A DNA stretch of 64,000 nucleotides from Lentisphaerota bacterium (GTDB lineage Bacteria > Verrucomicrobiota > Lentisphaeria > Victivallales > Victivallaceae). Under the pieces are notes generated by a model. It was not told where the DNA came from. It saw only the letters and a program-made list of their open reading frames with translations, and made no database searches. The position numbers and the translations under genes were made by a program. The DNA lies in the NCBI GenBank assembly GCA_015061745.1, contig SUWB01000012.1:1-64000 (forward strand), in the 5' to 3' direction. Below, in pieces: positions 6,914 to 63,589 of the stretch; position 1 is the stretch's first letter, and each line of letters opens with the position of its first letter.

Positions 6914-7987
6914 ATGAAAAATCACCCTATCCTCTCCTCTCCCCCCCTTTTCCATTCACCCGCCCAGGCAAAGAATGCCCGGCGTCAGGAAAGGAAGAGA
7001 AACAGATTTACCCTCATTGAATTGCTGGTGAGTACTACTTGTCAAATAGGTGTTTATATCTTGCGAAAAATTGCCTCTTGCCTTAATACTTGCCGTTGCA
7101 ATTCTTCAAAATGCGGGATTGTCGGTTTTGCGGATGCAAAAACGGCAATCCACCAAAAGTTTTTGGCAAGGATGGATGGGGCCCGGGGAAGGAAGGGAGA
7201 ACCTTTTTTCAAAAAGGGTTCCCTTCCTTCCCCGGCTCCTTTCACCTTGATCGAACTTCTGGTTGTCATTGCGATCATTGCAATCCTCGCCGCTATGCTT
7301 CTGCCCGCACTGCAGCAAGCCCGGGAAAGAGGGAAAGCCATCAGCTGTACCAACACGGTCAAACAATGGGGCATGAATATCATCTCCTATGCTGATGATC
7401 AGGCAGACTATCTTGTTCCGGTTACCGTCAGCAGAGCCAATGGAACGACCAGCAGTTACTACTGGACAAAACCTCAGGACTCTCATTTCGCCTCCTATAT
7501 GGGAACAAATCAGAAAAAAGGTGTCATTGGAGGGATGTTCATCGAATCGGGAGTCCGTTATTACGATCCTGCCAATATGTGCCCTTCACATACCCGGAAT
7601 CAGTTTGCCGATTCTTTCGGAAAAAATGACAAATATCTTTCCTACGGCCTCAACACCTTTGTTTCCAACCGTTCCGGAAAAGCCAAAAGTGTCAAACGGG
7701 CCTCCATCAACTATCCCTCCCGTTTGAGTATCCTCATTGAGACCTACTATATCTATTACGGCTACAAAACCATTGTTAAAGATTCCGGGACCCGCAACCT
7801 CGGAAATCTGGCTTTCAGACACAACGACGGTGCCAATGTCCTCTTTGGTGACGGTCATGTGAATCTTATGCATTTCCGGCGGATCCCTTCACACGACCTC
7901 AGCAACTGGGCCTGGAAGAGTAAATTCTTCAACCCTATGCAGCGTGAAGACTCAGGTACAGATCCCAAATGGCCGGACTGGCAGTAA
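6914..7987 (+). CDS. Pseudopilin-like secreted protein (H-X9-DG type) with duplicated prepilin motif
   Basis: A 357-residue protein of the large pseudopilin-like family of Lentisphaerae and Planctomycetes. The functional-looking N-terminal helix is at residue 110 ([16 protein letters not shown]), followed by a globular region with SYGLNTF and a C-terminal H-X9-DG motif ([12 protein letters not shown], about residues 302-313). Odd feature: an earlier FTLIELLV at residue 32 is not followed by a hydrophobic helix but by 70 residues encoded by a hairpin-rich insert (7031-7240), so the leader would be over 100 residues instead of the usual under 30. Whether it is still processed is unknown. It lies between the regulator (40-base gap) and two DUF4838 genes. 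Confidence 0.85.
7031..7264 (+). repeat. Hairpin cassette copy 1 (210-bp insert plus second FTLIELLV codons)
   Basis: In-frame insert right after the first FTLIELLV codons (7007-7030), ending with a second set (7241-7264). Bases 7038-7266 match 48243-48471 with about four differences by eye. Three hairpins fill it: 7065-7074 with 7098-7107 (GAAAAATTGC/GCAATTCTTC); 7116-7131 with 7136-7151 (GGATTGTCGGTTTTGC arm, one wobble and one mismatch); and a long one, 7183-7235, with CCGGGGAAGGAAGGGA paired to its complement, a 2-base bulge and an inner A5/T5 stem. The similarity stops inside the motif codons. Confidence 0.85.
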
Positions 7988-8014: not shown

Positions 8015-10570
8015 ATGAGAACCTTCTCTTTATTGCTGTTGGGCACATTATGCTTTGTCCTTGGAGCCCGCGATGTCAAAATCGTTCAGAAAGGTCATTC
8101 AAACTGGCAGATCGTTCTGCCCGACAAAAGTGACCATCCACTTACAGAGCGTTACCTCGAAGAAGCCGCACTTGCTTTGCAGGAAGGTTTTTTTGAGGGT
8201 TCCGGTGTAAAACTTCCCGTAGTCAGAGAATCCAAACAGCTGCCGGGAAGACCGGCCATCCACATCGGAGGTACCCGGGAGGCTGCAAAACAAGGGATCA
8301 ATTGTTCAAAATTCCGTGATTTCAATGCTCAAATCACCATCACGCCCGACAGAATATTTCTTGCCGGCCGTGACCGGATCGCCTCCATCAGCACCAACAA
8401 ATATGCCACTTCAGCTCTTTTTGATCATCATCTTTGTCAGCTGGGATCAGCCAAAGCTGTTGCGGAATTTATGAAGCGTCATCTCAAAACCCGCTTCCTT
8501 ATGCCGGGCAAAACCGGAACCACGACTCCTGCTTTCCGGGATCTGATCCTGCCTGCAGGTACACGCACCATCACTCCGACGCTCCGTTTCAGTGCCGGAC
8601 GGGTCACCTCCCTTCTCTACGACTATGCCAACGGTTACTACGGCTACGGTGAATTTTTCAGTTACGGAGGACACTCCTACTATCAGGCAGTCAGTGCGGC
8701 CAAATACGGCAAGAGCAATCCGGAATATTTCCGTATGGACAAAGACGGGAAACGGGTTTCCGCCGGGGGGCATCTGTGCTTTTCCAACCCCAAAGTCCAG
8801 GAACTTTTTGTACAGGAACTTGTGCGGAGGTTCCGCAGCGGTGCCGCTGTCTGCCAGCTTGCTCAAACTGACGGCATGATCCCCTGTCTCTGTCCCGGAT
8901 GTGTCAACCTGGGAGGCCCCAACGCCACGATCGGGGAAAAACTCTGGATCGTCCACCGGAAAGTCGCTGAAAAAGTTTACAAAATTATGCCCGAAAAGAC
9001 GGTTCATATCCTCTCCTATGCTGAAACGGCTCTCCCTCCTGAAAGTTTCAAGGAGTTCCCTCCCAATGTTATGATCGAGCTGTGCTCCTATGCTCCTGAA
9101 GATTTCCAACGCTGGCAGAAGATCAAAGTTCCCCGGGGTTTTACGGTTTATATCTATAATTGGGGATTTTACAATCAGACAGGTTTTGCTCCGAAAAGGA
9201 CACCTGAGTTTGTCGTCAAACAGGCCCGGGAATTCCTCAAGAACAGGATCGCAGGCGTCTATCGCTGCGGCTTTGGAGAAAACTTCGGTCTTGAAGGCCC
9301 TTCCTACTATGCTTACGGGCAGCTCCTTGATGGCAGAAAAGATTCTCATCAGGAACTTTTTGACGAATATTGCCGCTTCAACTATCAGGAAGCCGCAAGT
9401 GCCATGCGGGCGTTCCATCGTCTCATCAACCAGCAGAGTGCTCTTTATTGCCTGCTTGGAGCCAATGAAATAGGTTCCAAAAATAATCACCTGCCCCGTG
9501 ATCCCAGAGCCTTGATGACTTCCCTTTATCCGGTTCCGCTCCTCAAAACTCTTGAAAGCAAACTTGCGGCGGCAGAAAAGGTCAAAGTTTCCCCAAAAGT
9601 AAAGAAACGCCTTGAGGCAGTCCGGGCGGAGTTCAACTACCTGAAACAGCTTATGCGCACCTTGCACACCTATTCCTATTACCAGCTCGCTCCCACACCT
9701 GAAAATTTTGACAAACTTGCTGTTGAGGTCAAAGCTTTCCGCAAGCTGGTCAACTCCTACTTTCATAAAGGGAAACACAAACCCTTCCCCGGCTGGAAAG
9801 AGTTCAAACTCTTTGCTCATTCCTCCCGCAACTATCTTCTTTCCAACGGCCGTCTCAGCGCGGGTATCGGTTCTCCCTTGTGCTGGAACACCGATGCCTT
9901 GAAAAAGGCCAATTACCTTCCCGGAGCCAAAGTTTCCAGTCTGGATGTTTTGCGCACACCTTCAAAGCCCGAGTTCAACTGTTTTGAAAAAGGAGTCTGG
10001 AGCAAAGCCGCCTGGAATCACCTCCGGGGCATTCAGTTGGGTGAGATCAAGGAAAAGAGCCGTTTCAAAGTTCTTTACGATGACAAAAATATCTACTTTG
10101 CCTTCATCAGCGAACTTGCTCCTGAAAAGAAACATATTTCTGCCGGGAAAGACGGTTATGCCTGGGCCACAGACTGTCTTGAGATCCTCATCGACCCTGA
10201 AGGGATGAGAGAAAAGTTTTTCCACTTCATCTGGAATCCCGTTCCGGATTCCACATGGGACGGAGCTTTCGGCCTCATTGCAGATCCGCTCCACCCCAAA
10301 TATGATGCCGATGACATTTCCTGGAACGGCGAATGGAGTTATCAGACCCGGCGTGAAGGCAAACTGTGGTACAGCCTTGTAACACTGCCTTATACCACGC
10401 TGCGTACCACAACCCCTGCGCCCGGAACCGTCTGGTGCCTCAATACCGCCCGCGAAGCCTACAAACCCGGCGGAAGAATGTATAACGAACTTTCCCTCTG
10501 GGCTCCCAACTTTGAGGATATGAAGATCAACAAAAACCGTGAATCACTGGGAGAAATGCATTTCAAATGA
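8015..10570 (+). CDS. Secreted DUF4838 family protein with CBM9-like C-terminus
   Basis: Predicted exported carbohydrate-active protein of 851 residues; the exact reaction is unknown. A signal peptide covers residues 1-18 (LLLLGTLCFVLGA). An N-terminal alpha/beta domain (HPLTERYLEEAALALQEG, PAIHIGGTREA) resembles the accessory domain of alpha-glucuronidases and DUF4838 proteins. The DUF4838 core follows, with SNPEYFRMDKDGKR (about 236-249), LAQTDG (about 282) and a CLCPGC cysteine pair, then GEKLWIVHRKVAEKV. Residues about 655-850 (VLYDDKNIYFAF, ATDCLEILIDPEG, NTAREAY) look like a family-9-type carbohydrate-binding domain. It overlaps the next paralogue by four bases. Confidence 0.8.
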   Translation: MRTFSLLLLGTLCFVLGARDVKIVQKGHSNWQIVLPDKSDHPLTERYLEEAALALQEGFFEGSGVKLPVVRESKQLPGRPAIHIGGTREAAKQGINCSKFRDFNAQITITPDRIFLAGRDRIASISTNKYATSALFDHHLCQLGSAKAVAEFMKRHLKTRFLMPGKTGTTTPAFRDLILPAGTRTITPTLRFSAGRVTSLLYDYANGYYGYGEFFSYGGHSYYQAVSAAKYGKSNPEYFRMDKDGKRVSAGGHLCFSNPKVQELFVQELVRRFRSGAAVCQLAQTDGMIPCLCPGCVNLGGPNATIGEKLWIVHRKVAEKVYKIMPEKTVHILSYAETALPPESFKEFPPNVMIELCSYAPEDFQRWQKIKVPRGFTVYIYNWGFYNQTGFAPKRTPEFVVKQAREFLKNRIAGVYRCGFGENFGLEGPSYYAYGQLLDGRKDSHQELFDEYCRFNYQEAASAMRAFHRLINQQSALYCLLGANEIGSKNNHLPRDPRALMTSLYPVPLLKTLESKLAAAEKVKVSPKVKKRLEAVRAEFNYLKQLMRTLHTYSYYQLAPTPENFDKLAVEVKAFRKLVNSYFHKGKHKPFPGWKEFKLFAHSSRNYLLSNGRLSAGIGSPLCWNTDALKKANYLPGAKVSSLDVLRTPSKPEFNCFEKGVWSKAAWNHLRGIQLGEIKEKSRFKVLYDDKNIYFAFISELAPEKKHISAGKDGYAWATDCLEILIDPEGMREKFFHFIWNPVPDSTWDGAFGLIADPLHPKYDADDISWNGEWSYQTRREGKLWYSLVTLPYTTLRTTTPAPGTVWCLNTAREAYKPGGRMYNELSLWAPNFEDMKINKNRESLGEMHFK

Positions 10571-12954
10571 AAAAATCTCTTTTACTGCTGTGTTTTGCAC
10601 TGACAGCTTTACAGCTGTGTGCCGCCCGGGGTTTTCTGGTACATAACGGCAAAACCAATTGCCGTATAGTCATCTCTCAGAAAAAGGCGGAATTCATTCC
10701 CCTGTACCGTGATTGCGCTCAACTGCTCCAAAAGGCATTTCAAAGTTCTGCGGGCGTGATGCTCCCCATTGACACACCCGACAGGGGCGGTTATACGCTC
10801 TACATCGGCACCCCGTCTCCCGGTGCGGCCGCCTTGCAAGAGGGCGAGTACCGGGTGGAGGCACGGGGCAAAAACCTCTACATCTACGGAGACGACAGAA
10901 AGTGGAAAAAAAAGAGTTCTCCCGCAGATCACCGCGATTACCGGGTGGCAACTGCTCAGGCAGCAGCCTATCTGGCAGAGGTATGCACGGAAGCCTGTTG
11001 GCTTTACCCGGGACAAAGTACCCCCGCAACGGAAGCAAAAAAGGATATTCCTTTCCCTGAAGGCATAAATTACAGCTGCGTTCCTGACTTTCTCTACAAC
11101 TTCAGCTATACCCGTTCCGGAGGAAAATTTTATGACTGGGCCAACGGCAGAATGCCCTTCGCTCACTACGGAACCTATGGCGGCCATTCCCATGTTTTTG
11201 CGGTACGGCGCAACAAGTATTTGAAGAGCAATCCGGAATTTTTTGCTCTTCACAAGAATAAACGTCTTCATCCGGCCTTGTACAGCACCCAGTACTGCCT
11301 TTCCAATCCCACGGTGCAGGAATTGATCTTCAAGGAGGTCGTCCGCAAGATGGATGAAGGTTATCCCATAGTGCAGCTGGCCCAATCTGATGGATTCTTC
11401 TGGTGCGAATGCAAAAAATGCGCCGTTCTTTTCAATCAGAAAGATTCCGGTGAAAAGTTGTGGATTCTTCACAGAAATATTGCCGAAAAGGTCAGCAAGG
11501 TACGCCCCGGGAAAAAGGTGTGTATCCTTGCCTATGGCCCCACAGAAATGCCCCCAAAAAGCTTCAAGCGGTTCCCGGATAATGTGGTCATTGAACTTGC
11601 TCCTCCGGATAAAAGGCTTCTTGATATGTGGAAATCTTATCACGTTCCCGGTGGTTTTGTTGCTTACCTCTACGACTTCGGCCACTACCACCGCAGCGGC
11701 CTGACCCCCCACCGGAGTTTCAGCGAAATGGCGCAGGAACTTTCCGCTATGCGCCGTGCCGGAGTCAGGGGATTGTACAATTGCGGTTACGCTGAGTTTC
11801 CCGGTTTGGGAGGCCCCGGCTATTTTATCTGGAACCAATTGGCAAAAGGCAGTACCAGATCCCCCGGAGAACTCCTGAAGTTTTTCTGCAAAAAAGCCTT
11901 CCGCAGTGCCGCTGCCGAAGCGGAACAGTTTTACACGCTTCTGGACAGCCGGATCGAAAAGGTCAAAGATAGCGTTGAAGATGTTACCAATCCCGGCAAG
12001 GTGGGCAATTTAAATTCCCGTGAGCTGCTTTTACGCCGTTTCACGCCAGAGGTTATGCAAGAGCTTGACCGACTCTTCCTTGCCATTGAGAAAAAGGAAA
12101 AATCGCTCACCGGAAGCAAACTCCTTGCCGCAGAATTCACACTCCTCAAACTGACGATGGAAGCTCTGTACCTGTATGACAGATTTTTCAAAGAACGCAC
12201 CCAAAAGAACTTTGATGCCATCCTTGCGGCACTGGAAAAGCGGGAGAGTTTCCTCAACACCCTTCCCTGGAAAGGCAATTACTGCGCCGCCATTGACGGT
12301 GTACCGCTTTTTTACGGGATACCTTTCAAAGATATCCGGGTGAACGGAAGACTTAACGCCCCTGTTAATGTGCCTCTTTCCTGGGATCATCGCTGGATGA
12401 AAAAATACAAAGTCCGGACAGCAGGCAGGATTATGAAGTGCAATACTCCGCCTCAAACTCTCATTCAGCAGAATCTCTACCGTTTTTATCCCTGGAACAT
12501 AAGCCGCCGGACAGAGGTCTCATGCCGTATGGACAGCAACAATTTCTACGTCAAGTTTGCTGCGCCCAATGAAAAAAGTTTGAACAATAATGGTTTTCAT
12601 GTCTATCTCATGCGTAAAAACAAGGGGAACTTCCGGGTGATTTGCGGATTGACACCGAAAGGCAATTGGAGTTATCTCTCCAAAGGGACTTTTGATCCCA
12701 AGGCCCAACGGATCATCTTCAAAAGAGTCCCCTCCCCGGCATTCAAAGCCAACCTGCTCCCCGGGCCCCGTCCGGCAGTAGAGGTGGTCATTCCCTGGAA
12801 ACTGGTGGGAGGCCCCCCCGTTCCCGGAGAAAAATGCGGTTTCAATGCTTTGAGAAATGACAAAAATGCCAATATGACATTGGTATGGGAACAGACTCAA
12901 AGCCAGCCTACCTATGCTCACAGACTCAACGAACACGGAACTGTTGAATTCTGA
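10567..12954 (+). CDS. Secreted DUF4838 family protein, second paralogue
   Basis: A 795-residue paralogue of the preceding protein, beginning four bases inside it (ATGA overlap), so the pair is translationally coupled. Signal peptide residues 1-20 (LLLLCFALTALQLCAA). The same core blocks are seen: SNPEFFALHKNKR, VQLAQSDG (about 270), CECKKC, GEKLWILHRNIAEKVSKVRPG and PGLGGPGYFIWNQL. The C-terminal domain (about 640-795) is shorter but has the same strand pattern (NNFYVKFAAPNE, VEVVIPWKLVG) as a CBM9-like fold. Probably acts with its neighbour on the same glycan outside the cytoplasm; substrate unknown. Confidence 0.78.
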   Translation: MKKSLLLLCFALTALQLCAARGFLVHNGKTNCRIVISQKKAEFIPLYRDCAQLLQKAFQSSAGVMLPIDTPDRGGYTLYIGTPSPGAAALQEGEYRVEARGKNLYIYGDDRKWKKKSSPADHRDYRVATAQAAAYLAEVCTEACWLYPGQSTPATEAKKDIPFPEGINYSCVPDFLYNFSYTRSGGKFYDWANGRMPFAHYGTYGGHSHVFAVRRNKYLKSNPEFFALHKNKRLHPALYSTQYCLSNPTVQELIFKEVVRKMDEGYPIVQLAQSDGFFWCECKKCAVLFNQKDSGEKLWILHRNIAEKVSKVRPGKKVCILAYGPTEMPPKSFKRFPDNVVIELAPPDKRLLDMWKSYHVPGGFVAYLYDFGHYHRSGLTPHRSFSEMAQELSAMRRAGVRGLYNCGYAEFPGLGGPGYFIWNQLAKGSTRSPGELLKFFCKKAFRSAAAEAEQFYTLLDSRIEKVKDSVEDVTNPGKVGNLNSRELLLRRFTPEVMQELDRLFLAIEKKEKSLTGSKLLAAEFTLLKLTMEALYLYDRFFKERTQKNFDAILAALEKRESFLNTLPWKGNYCAAIDGVPLFYGIPFKDIRVNGRLNAPVNVPLSWDHRWMKKYKVRTAGRIMKCNTPPQTLIQQNLYRFYPWNISRRTEVSCRMDSNNFYVKFAAPNEKSLNNNGFHVYLMRKNKGNFRVICGLTPKGNWSYLSKGTFDPKAQRIIFKRVPSPAFKANLLPGPRPAVEVVIPWKLVGGPPVPGEKCGFNALRNDKNANMTLVWEQTQSQPTYAHRLNEHGTVEF

Positions 12955-13095: not shown

Positions 13096-13926
13096 ATGAA
13101 ATTCTTATCACATACGCCTTCCGCAACAAAACTGTCTGCATCGACCACAGAAAAAAGAGAGTTTTCACCTGCCTCAAGGCAGGTGAAGCTGTCCAGCTTC
13201 ACACTGATCGAACTGCTGGTCGTCATTGCCATCATCGCCATTCTGGCGTCTATGCTCCTCCCGGCCTTGCAGCAGGCCCGTGACAGAGCCATTGAGACCC
13301 AGTGCCTGAACAATATGCGGGAAGTCAACAACGCCGTTCTGCGCTATGTGGACGAAAACCAAGGATACGCCCCCTGCGGCGGGTACACCTCCAATTACCT
13401 TTACCACCACAACAACTCTTTCGGAAAGGGAACCTTGACCGGCTACCTGCCTTACAAGATAGAGGCCGGCACAGCAGAACTTCCGCCTGTTGCCGTTTGT
13501 CCGAAGGGAAGACGTGACTGGAACGTTCCTCCGAACTCCCCCAAATGCGCCGACGGGAACCCAAACTTCAGTTACGGCTTGAACTATTACACCAGTTATA
13601 TGGCCATCAAAGCTGCCAATATGGTCTATTTTCAAAAATTCAGTTCCGGCAGACATATGAGCACCCGTATGAGCCTTGCGGAGATCGGAGCTCCCTGGAT
13701 TCCCTGGTACTCAGCCCCCGGCAGTTATGTGGGCGGAGCCGGTGTCAGCGGTCTCAACCACCTTGCCTACCGCCACCCCTATCTCAAGTCCACCAACGTC
13801 GTTTATGCTGACGGTCACGCTTCAGCCCTCAAGGCCTATGCGCTGCCCCGGAATGTCAGCGGTTGGGACGGCAAGGGAGACACCACCTATTTCTGGCGGG
13901 ACAACTATGCAGCAACAACCAACTGA
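13096..13926 (+). CDS. Pseudopilin-like secreted protein with hairpin-encoded leader
   Basis: A 276-residue pseudopilin-like protein. [16 protein letters not shown] starts at residue 35, followed by [20 protein letters not shown], the usual N-terminal helix. The C-terminal region has [16 protein letters not shown], a variant of the H-X9-DG motif with eleven residues between H and DG. The start ATG follows AAGGAG closely. The leader MKF then 31 extra residues ends in [11 protein letters not shown], encoded by a double hairpin (13164-13202) that is also found in the gene at 48092. It has its own promoter and terminator, so it is a single-gene unit. Confidence 0.85.
13164..13202 (+). repeat. Double-hairpin module in a pseudopilin leader
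   Basis: TTCACCTGCC (13164-13173), loop TCAA, GGCAGGTGAA (13178-13187), overlapping GTGAAGCTG (13183-13191), TC, CAGCTTCAC (13194-13202). The last TTCAC is itself the F-T codons of FTLIELLV. The same module with different loops (CACA, TA) is at 48178-48217, and the reading frame gives SPAxRQVKLxSFT in both. Confidence 0.8.
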
Positions 13927-48091: not shown

Positions 48092-49048
48092 ATGAAAAGA
48101 AAATTTACGCTGATCGAGCTCCTTGTGAAAAGATCACATCTCTGCTGTGATCGTGTTTATGGCAAAGAAGGAGGTTTTTCACCTGCCCACAGGCAGGTGA
48201 AGCTGTACAGCTTCACCTTAATAGAGCTTCTTGTAAGCAAAGCTTGTCAAATATGTGTTTATATCTTGCGAAAAATTGCCTCTTGCCTTGATACTTGCCG
48301 TTGCAATTCTTCAAAATGCGGGATTGTCGGTTTTGCGGATGCAAAAACGGCAATCCACCAAAAGTTTTTGGCAAGGATGGATGGGGTCCGGGGAAGGAAG
48401 GGAGAACCTTTTTTCAAAAAGGGTTCCCTTCCTTCCCCGGCTCCTTTCACCCTGATCGAACTTCTGGTTGTGATCGCTATTATCGCCATCCTGGCGGCAA
48501 TGCTGCTTCCGGCACTTCAAAACGCCCGTGAAATGGGCAAAAAAGCCTCCTGTATCAACAGTCTGACAAGTATGAGCAAAGGAGCCTTTATTTATATGCA
48601 GGAAAACCGGGATATCACCTGTCCCCTATACGGAGTCACCAACAATGATGCCACTGACGGCGGCCCTATGTGGTTCACACGTCCGTCACTGATCGCTGCA
48701 ATGGGCTATCGTGGTGCCACGTACATTGCTGTGGCATACTCGCAGGACGGCAAAACGGTCGTCAATTATCCGCCCTATTGTCCTTCGATAATCCCTGTGC
48801 GCAAGCGGGCGACATTGACCTATTCTTACGGCTACAATATGTACGCCGGAGCCAGAACATTTGCACAGACACCGTCATTGAACAAGCGCCTTTTCTTTGC
48901 TGATGCCGCCCAGATGCGGATATACCAGAAAGACACCTATGCGCCGGCTTCACGCCATCGTGGGACATTCAATGCCTCTTTCGGTGACGGCAGTATCAGG
49001 AGTTTCAAACATCGTGAGCAGCTTACAGGATATCTTGAAGTCAGATAA
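48092..49048 (+). CDS. Pseudopilin-like secreted protein with three prepilin motifs
   Basis: A 318-residue pseudopilin of the H-X9-DG type. ATG at 48092 (AAGGA six bases before). FTLIELLV occurs at residues 5, 41 and 119. The first is exactly where a normal prepilin motif lies (MKRK then F), but its hydrophobic helix is displaced to the third copy, [16 protein letters not shown]. Between copies 1 and 2 is an 84-base insert of three hairpins, between 2 and 3 a 210-base insert shared with the gene at 6914. The C-terminus has [14 protein letters not shown], a true H-X9-DG. It precedes the 1064-residue secreted protein by 12 bases. Confidence 0.85.
48128..48235 (+). repeat. Hairpin cassette 2: 84-bp insert plus second FTLIELLV codons
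   Basis: Begins directly after the first FTLIELLV codons (48104-48127). It contains GATCACA/TGTGATC (48132-48138, 48146-48152), TTCACCTGCC/GGCAGGTGAA (48178-48187, 48192-48201) and GGTGAAGCTG/CAGCTTCACC (48196-48205, 48208-48217), the last two overlapping in GGTGAA. It ends with motif codons 48212-48235. The last two hairpins match the module at 13164-13202. Confidence 0.8.
48236..48469 (+). repeat. Hairpin cassette copy 3 (210-bp insert plus third FTLIELLV codons)
   Basis: From 48243 it matches 7038-7266 with about four differences, including both hairpin arms: 48270-48312, 48321-48356 and 48388-48440. It begins right after the second motif (48212-48235) and ends with the third (48446-48469). 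Downstream the two host genes use different synonymous codons, so the match breaks off within two bases of the motif end. Confidence 0.85.
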
Positions 49049-62611: not shown

Positions 62612-63589
62612 ATGAAAAAATATTTCACTTTGATCGAATTATTGGTTACCACTGCACAACAGAACTGTTTTTCAAAATTAAAAAACTACACCTCCTCACG
62701 CCCGTCAGGGCGCACTTCACGCTTGACACAGTCAAGCTCTTCACATCTTCACACGCCGGAGGCGTTCTTCACTCAATCAGCGTTCACGCTGATTGAACTG
62801 CTGGTCGTCATTGCCATTATTGCCATTCTGGCCGCAATGCTTCTGCCCGCACTGCAGCAGGCAAAAGGAAGAGCTCAAGCTATTACCTGCATAAACAATA
62901 TGGGCACTCTTGCCAAGGCGTGGACTTTTTATGTAAGTGACAACAACGGAGTCTATCCCGGGCTGTGGAATGGCGGTTATGCCAGCCAGTCTTCCAGAAA
63001 ATGGTATTATTCCCACTACAGTGCCGAACATATCCGCGGAACACACGCAGGAATCTTCCCGCCTTACCTGGGAACTTCCATTAAGACTTCCAACGAATCA
63101 GGCGGCGGTATCGGCGGATTTGCCCGTTCCTCCAAAGGTGATGTTTACAGACATCTTCTCTTTTGCCCCACCCGTGAAAATTCTATGCGTGAAATAATGG
63201 TAAAAGCAGGCAATTCCTCAGCCGGCGGCAACGGCATCACCCTGAATAACAGAGATCAGGGCCAGCGTCTTGTCCGTGTCCGTCAGGCTTCACGGAGTAT
63301 GGCGGCAGCCGAAAGTCCTTTCGGAGCAACCTATCTTGACTATAAGGCGGCAAACCCGACTACAACAGATTACTTTCTGCCTGTGTTTCCCCATTCCAAT
63401 CCGAATCCGGGAGATAATGAAAAGGGCAAACAACAGTTGATTTCGACTCCCGGTTCTGCTTCATTCCTCTTCTTTGATGCCCATGTAAAGATGCTCTCCC
63501 GCCACGAAGTCCCTATGGATGGCCGCACTGCCAATGCTGTGACTTCCACCTTCTGGAGTCCTGTCACTGCCACCCATAACAATTGGTGA
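62612..63589 (+). CDS. Pseudopilin-like secreted protein with duplicated prepilin motif
   Basis: A 325-residue pseudopilin. MKKY then FTLIELLV at residue 5, the normal place, but the hydrophobic helix follows a second copy at residue 58 ([16 protein letters not shown] and then [16 protein letters not shown]). The 45 residues between are encoded by a string of hairpins and are serine/threonine/histidine-rich ([16 protein letters not shown]), unlike a globular domain. The C-terminal part has a [11 protein letters not shown] segment but no clean H-X9-DG. AGGGA precedes the ATG. It is followed after about 50 bases by a DppA-type gene. Confidence 0.85.
62648..62806 (+). repeat. Hairpin cassette 4: 135-bp insert of TTCAC-linked palindromes plus second motif
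   Basis: It lies between motif codons 62624-62647 and 62783-62806. Hairpins: CGCCC/GGGCG (62699-62712), GCTTGAC/GTCAAGC (62721-62737), ACGCC/GGCGT (62753-62765) and TCAATCAGCG/CGCTGATTGA (62773-62782, 62787-62796). Successive ones are separated by TTCAC. In the last, the loop TTCA and the right arm are the F-T-L-I-E codons themselves, so the left arm is an inverted copy of the motif. Confidence 0.85.

Follow-up and report, generated by a model that had tools for sequence, protein, structure and literature searches.

We analysed a stretch of 64,000 nucleotides (the window) from the draft genome of a Lentisphaerota bacterium (G000; 3.10 Mb in 75 contigs, 91.6% complete). Two pseudopilin genes in this window carry nearly the same piece of DNA, which we call cassette A. 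The two copies are 98.25% identical over 229 aligned bp, corresponding to four differences, and both lie in frame inside pseudopilin ORFs, between two runs of codons for FTLIELLV, with the host codons diverging at once on either side. This arrangement, with about four differences, had been noted in an earlier reading of the letters without searches (the sequence-only reading), and we found it in both genes. We let the cassette start behind the GT of the upstream motif and end at the GT of its own motif, so that a unit of 234 bp comprises 210 bp plus its own FTLIELLV codons. Both encoded proteins bear the prepilin N-terminal motif (PF07963, TIGR02532) together with an H-X9-DG domain (TIGR04294), all above cut-off; in the 357-aa protein the PF07963 match spans residues 110–130. 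PF07963 and TIGR02532 match the downstream copy of the motif only, and the upstream copy is touched by a sub-threshold match to NF038304 (E = 0.025). Two large ORFs follow 3' of the first pseudopilin gene (8015–12954), the first of which matches DUF4838 (PF16126) and, weakly, CBM9.

Table 1. Pseudopilin genes of the window and the hairpin cassettes at their prepilin motifs
Feature	Position	Strand	Evidence
Pseudopilin gene, 357 aa, cassette A in leader region	6914..7987	+	ORF; PF07963, TIGR02532, TIGR04294
Target motif, host-coded upstream FTLIELLV codons	7007..7030	+	Sequence
Cassette A copy 1, 234 bp	7030..7263	+	Sequence comparison, genome search
Inner hairpin of cassette A (GGATTGTCGGTTTTGC...GCAAAAACGGCAATCC)	7115..7151	+	DNA fold; position from sequence
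Long hairpin near right end of cassette A	7183..7235	+	Self-complementary match 7183–7235; fold
Cassette-coded FTLIELLV, followed by host VIAIIAIL	7241..7264	+	Sequence
Small double-hairpin element before motif of third pseudopilin (13096–13926)	13164..13202	+	Stem analysis, fold
Pseudopilin gene with tandem cassettes, E then A	48092..49048	+	ORF, profile matches
First FTLIELLV codons, host-coded	48104..48127	+	Sequence
Cassette E, 108 bp, hairpins near both ends, own terminal FTLIELLV	48127..48234	+	Sequence; fold z = -3.9
Cassette A copy 2, 234 bp, behind cassette E motif	48235..48468	+	Sequence comparison, genome search
Cassette D, 159 bp, string of small hairpins	62647..62805	+	Sequence; fold of 62663–62805 z = -6.7

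The window holds further hairpin DNA at prepilin motifs. In the third pseudopilin gene a double hairpin of 40 bp (region 13155–13225) stands directly 5' of the motif, with no second motif upstream of it; its second stem (GTGAAGCTG/CAGCTTCAC) makes use of the motif codons, and the whole stretch folds with z = -2.6. Elements of this type at about a dozen sites follow the local codons. The motif codons also form the 3' arm of the last hairpin of cassette D (TCAATCAGCG-TTCA-CGCTGATTGA). Several small palindromes of cassette D are preceded by TTCAC, the same letters with which the motif starts, and the cassette looks as if smaller hairpins had been added to it successively.

The sequence-only reading had proposed a mobile element that carries the motif at its end and targets the motif codons, and it had considered the case that only the two window copies exist. 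In G000 we found at least 41 strong sense matches to cassette A with 89–100% identity, short hairpin self-matches being set aside; this number is a lower bound, as 40 of 103 first-look candidates were scored. Among the 41 copies the left flank was readable in 39 and the right end in 40. The left flank is a host-coded prepilin motif, intact or decayed, in 38 of the 39 (the exception being L030), with codons that vary from gene to gene, and the cassette begins directly behind the last GT. At the right end the cassette's own FTLIELLV is intact in 40/40 with nearly constant DNA, and from the next base on variable host DNA follows, mostly VIAII codons, or, in three copies, another cassette. Both ends are thus as the proposed targeting implies. 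The upstream motif is perfect in 30/39 copies and changed in nine (in L030 beyond recognition), whereas the downstream motif is perfect in 40/40 (Fisher P = 0.001), and such one-sided decay would follow if the last motif alone were still functional. An alternative count of perfect upstream motifs (53/71) is biased, since these units were found via intact last motifs in open frames.

When we searched G000 for the left end of cassette A, allowing up to three mismatches, 56 matches were obtained compared to eight in a reversed control. Directly behind an exact motif lay 41 of them; the remaining 15 consisted of nine preceded by a decayed motif, one lying at the edge of a contig, L030 and four others (C40:115841 with two mismatches and three with three mismatches) that were taken as chance matches. 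In the window copy (7030–7055) and in L010 the left end of another family (GAGTACTACTTGTCAAATAGG) precedes the body of A, and L196, a near-orthologue of L010, has the same left end and a different body, which suggests that cassette halves have been exchanged. One copy of G000 (L039, C33:12810–13036) has its long hairpin block inverted and an E cassette directly after it; its identity to the A consensus is 211/234 as it stands and 222/234 with the block turned back. Compensating frameshifts were rejected as a reading of L039, as the turned hairpin block explains the sequence better.

Cassette A is one of several elements at this site. The mobile-element idea of the sequence-only reading is supported, and beyond it we found several families common to the site: apart from A there are at least five cassette kinds, some sharing left or right halves, in tandems of up to three. 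In other genus members (L050, L051, L158 and L162 in G008, G031 and G029) we noted a further kind of 168–195 bp at the same site. The motif pattern YTNATHGARYTNYTNGTN gave 158 matches in G000 against three in the reversed control; at least one of the 158 (L095) is no pilin. The G000 matches form 100 clusters with 58 neighbouring pairs less than 700 bp apart, at 12 different spacings. In 57/58 pairs the spacing is divisible by three, the exception of 137 containing 10 Ns, and in other genomes all 58 of the 58 motif pairs less than 450 bp apart, found by DNA alone, are spaced in multiples of three. The 130 units examined measure 84–264 bp and have 20 different lengths; 72 of them come from the own genome and lie inside open frames, hence stop-free by construction, and the 58 others were taken without a frame condition. 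With lengths in multiples of three and an open frame, a ribosome that begins at the host start codon can read through the cassette.

In the sequence-only reading the insert forms three hairpins; as single-stranded DNA cassette A folds with -52.3 kcal/mol, compared to a shuffle mean of -27.5 (z = -7.3), into two strong hairpins and a weak third one. A control stretch from the body of the same gene gave z = +0.7, and negative values were obtained for 143 bases of cassette D (z = -6.7) and for cassette E (z = -3.9). The fold of A leaves its first 34 bases unpaired and places the hairpins internally, and the two ends do not pair with each other; in this family, the one tested, there are no terminal inverted repeats. 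The motif itself takes part in the folding. At 117 of 213 sites the motif codons supply the 3' side of a perfectly matched stem with eight or more pairs, whereas shuffled upstream DNA gave 0 or 1 such sites and swapping of the motifs between sites gave 50–73, a high number because one stem dominates. For a smaller stem at 13 sites, which were chosen for matching, the 5' arm matches the site's own codons (TTCACC, TTTACC or TTCACA) in 13/13, compared to 6.9 on average and at most 11 with motifs swapped among the 13. Since the stem includes and tracks the motif codons, it must either derive from them by copying or be maintained. Identical 9-nt tails, our test for target duplication, occurred in 8/39 A copies (7.0 expected), in 14/75 of the X group (8.2 expected, P = 0.02) and in 2/16 others, so that the sequences of the X group may carry a short target duplication. 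A comparison with Rfam at E values up to 1 returned 34 matches, none at gathering score; we rejected them as nearly all were microRNA models attracted by the long stem. We also dropped the reading as an RNA intron, suggested by the GTRAG-like left end, because other families do not have this left end.

Family A shows no sign of a selected or conserved peptide. Substitutions in 37 copies are distributed over the three codon positions as 114/102/88 (P = 0.19), distinct minor alleles as 36/41/29 and the 92 distinct changes as 30/34/28, and in L039 the turned hairpin block rewrites the peptide with the frame kept. The frame is open in 39/39 copies. These copies contain no stop, against an expectation of 2.8 stop-creating changes (P about 0.05), so that this test lends the open frame weak support and the motif spacings lend it stronger support. 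All 130 units encode a net positive peptide without a transmembrane stretch, which fits the needs of a cytoplasmic leader, and reading this DNA in its other sense frames gives net positive peptides as well.

Genes with and without a cassette could be compared directly, and the empty sites in relatives that a mobile element should leave were indeed found. Among 11 pairs with a mature protein at least 90% identical, five differ by a whole cassette, representing four events. L145 has an extra 192-bp cassette compared to L163; its right motif is that of the emptier gene and its left motif differs, which places the exchange point inside the motif and not at its end and implies that recombination within the motif plays some part. 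In the first gene of L177 and L248 a cassette with a decayed left motif stands against a plain motif, and the bases adjoining the insert differ slightly. The second gene of the same loci has or lacks a 108-bp E cassette; the right flank is identical over 36 bases (361/377 overall), the left motifs show two synonymous differences and have the GT in common, and older cassettes further upstream differ. Finally, L016 of the own genome and L043 of G012 carry A and L243 does not. Although not every event is polarised singly, the repeat nature of the cassettes and the motif duplication lead us to favour gain over loss. The remaining six pairs show no whole-cassette difference. In L168/L187 and in the third gene of L177/L248 the two cassettes are distinguished by their sequence or by a hairpin of 12 bp (L177 near 4371, L248 near 6597); the third-gene cassette of L248 has an in-frame stop, followed by ATG.

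To follow the cassettes among relatives we ran a pattern of 22 bases from the right-end stem, without any motif letters, on a species-level genome collection. At least 99 stretches matched and, among the matches listed, all belong to Lentisphaeria or Lentisphaerae MAGs. Eighty loci were checked and proved to be 80 distinct places, six of them running off the contig; in all 74 readable ones the stem leads straight and in frame into the motif (FTLIELLV 73, FTLIELFV 1). The pattern occurs very unevenly, in 14 of 100 genomes including the own one: G012 (30), G013 (25), G000 (16), G027 (11), G042 (6), G096 (2) and eight others (1–4 each). G042 belongs to another genus and G096 to another family. 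A cassette of 168 bp in G042 shares 94.6% identity with one from the MAG RGIG5592 and 94.0% with one from G013, a member of the own genus. Cassette anatomy agrees between MAGs from different animals. The named relatives are all MAGs, and G000 is a draft assembly. Numerous contigs break off within a cassette (among them L026, L040, L094, L099, L101, L104, L106 and L110), so that copies are undercounted and some joins are possibly wrong. Two cassette end patterns had no exact match in viral contigs, and a search of plasmids and phages with the unit gave zero matches.

Which enzyme could move these cassettes? We searched 50–60 genomes with profiles for Y1 transposases, the C-terminal part of IS110 (PF02371), serine and tyrosine recombinases and reverse transcriptase, and no candidate from these families stood out in G000 or the cassette-rich G012, both of which are incomplete assemblies. 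IS110 (PF02371), serine recombinase and reverse transcriptase had no match in either genome and are present in some other relatives. For Y1, G000 has one IS200-like fragment, truncated where its contig ends, as well as a further partial match; none occurred in G012. The fragment (L142 1417–1608, end of contig C59) is the C-terminal part of an IS200-like transposase, followed by hairpins of its own. Tyrosine recombinases (PF00589) gave four matches in G000, two of which resemble XerC and XerD in length and gene neighbourhood, and two in G012.

Taken together, we consider it likely that these sequences are non-autonomous, hairpin-ended mobile cassettes of several families which insert site-specifically at prepilin-motif codons and restore the motif, the added leader presumably being removed. 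A cassette would be joined by a putative enzyme acting in trans to the end of the motif codons, behind FTLIELL-GT of a pseudopilin gene. Recognition is likely to rely on the folded right end of the cassette, and the enzyme probably reads folded ends plus motif DNA. The cassette's own terminal FTLIELLV would then provide a second intact prepilin signal joined to the host VIAIIAIL helix; since the motif comes with the cassette, the link between the last motif and this hydrophobic helix is preserved. The cassette peptide would become part of a longer leader, and prepilin peptidase would cut before the last FTLIELLV, removing leader and cassette peptide together. As the in-frame insertion brings a fresh copy of the signal, the mature protein is probably unchanged. 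Either motif could receive new cassettes, which would give rise to tandems. More tentatively, the cassettes may represent a distinct class of mobile DNA, in which several hairpin-ended families home in frame into one protein-processing signal and rebuild it, have their product removed by the host prepilin peptidase and are moved by an undescribed trans enzyme that reads folded ends and tolerates synonymous changes of the target.

An old insert might also have been spread with no dedicated mobility, by homologous recombination or ectopic gene conversion between pseudopilin paralogues through the motif codons; conversion is the alternative named by the sequence-only reading. Such exchange would be in line with the confinement of all copies to one gene family, with left or right halves common to several families, with the common left end and different bodies of L010 and L196 and with the exchange point inside the motif in L145/L163. 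However, it fits poorly with flanks that, in about 40 different genes, switch to host codons at an identical nucleotide on either side, as both junctions would be needed within 23 mismatched bases each time, with a right motif of nearly constant DNA next to left-motif codons that vary freely, and with the 94–95% identity between the 168-bp cassette of another genus (G042) and those of the own genus; we therefore regard conversion as very unlikely. Another explanation, which appears even less probable to us, would be that the cassettes are functional leader domains under selection, for example tuning export or expression. Their in-frame position at all readable sites and the net positive charge of 130/130 units without transmembrane stretch would agree with such a role, yet the substitutions in A show no codon-position bias, L039 keeps the frame with a rewritten peptide, orthologues have different cassettes or none, and a net positive charge is also seen in the other sense frames.

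The same elements could also derive from an IS200/IS605-type (Y1, HUH) transposon or from a REP-like system and be moved as single-stranded DNA. Hairpins near both ends with the ends not paired with each other, the absence of a clear target duplication, insertion behind a target of which a copy ends the element, and the fragment of an IS200-like transposase in the own genome, albeit cut by the contig end, all speak for this explanation. IS200/IS605 elements have short targets, though, and the target here is long and degenerate; moreover, G012 with its 30 right-end matches has no Y1 match, and the hairpins on the visible right side of the IS200-like fragment are different ones. On balance we hold this origin to be unlikely, while giving it serious thought. 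Integron-like cassettes with a tyrosine recombinase acting at folded sites would share the site specificity, the single orientation, the tandem arrays and the hairpin sites, but with no separate gene in the cassettes and with PF00589 matches limited to four in G000, the two that were read being Xer-like, and two in G012, this reading has hardly any probability. Hence the site-specific mobile cassettes described above remain our preferred explanation.

Among the top-ranked results of an open-access literature search we found no description of such cassettes. The nearest described system is the Rickettsia palindromic elements (RPEs), characterized as short palindromic repeats of several families that lie in frame in protein-coding genes (PMC10969869). 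The same source describes RPEs in many unrelated genes and with a conserved encoded peptide (PMC10969869). Like these, the cassettes are palindromic, in frame in coding genes and of several families; unlike them, they have one target motif, restore it and, in family A, are without peptide constraint. PARCELs are coding DNA with dyad symmetry that shows patchy horizontal spread and intragenomic shuffling (PMC2996958), all of which resembles the cassettes. However, PARCELs are tandem 25-residue repeats encoding amphipathic domains (PMC2996958), whereas the cassettes form single inserts in the leader, at a processing signal, with unit lengths of 84–264 bp and no 25-residue tandem visible in their translations. 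With MITE or REP-type elements they have in common that they are small, hairpin-forming, non-coding in origin, present in many copies and without an enzyme of their own, but they differ by the lack of end-pairing inverted terminal repeats (in the fold of A) and of a clear target duplication, and by their strict site. Integron gene cassettes are site-specific, have the same orientation, form tandem arrays and possess folded sites. The elements studied here share site specificity, orientation, tandems and folding, but have no separate gene and are inserted inside codons, and no integron integrase was seen among the recombinases examined. Islands and phages in tRNA genes carry a copy of the target end and thereby restore their target, as the cassettes do; here, however, the target is a protein-processing signal and the element has about 0.1–0.26 kb and codes for no enzyme.

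Mobile DNA within coding sequence is usually harmful unless it is spliced out, as are introns and inteins. If our reading is true, the cassettes would have found a further route to tolerance: they would sit in a part of the protein that is discarded by a protease and bring the cleavage signal with them, and would thus rely on prepilin peptidase as an intron relies on splicing. The finding points to a putative site-specific mobilising enzyme. For gut Lentisphaeria, the bacteria that carry the cassette families, it would also account for long, odd leaders and for contig breaks in their genomes.
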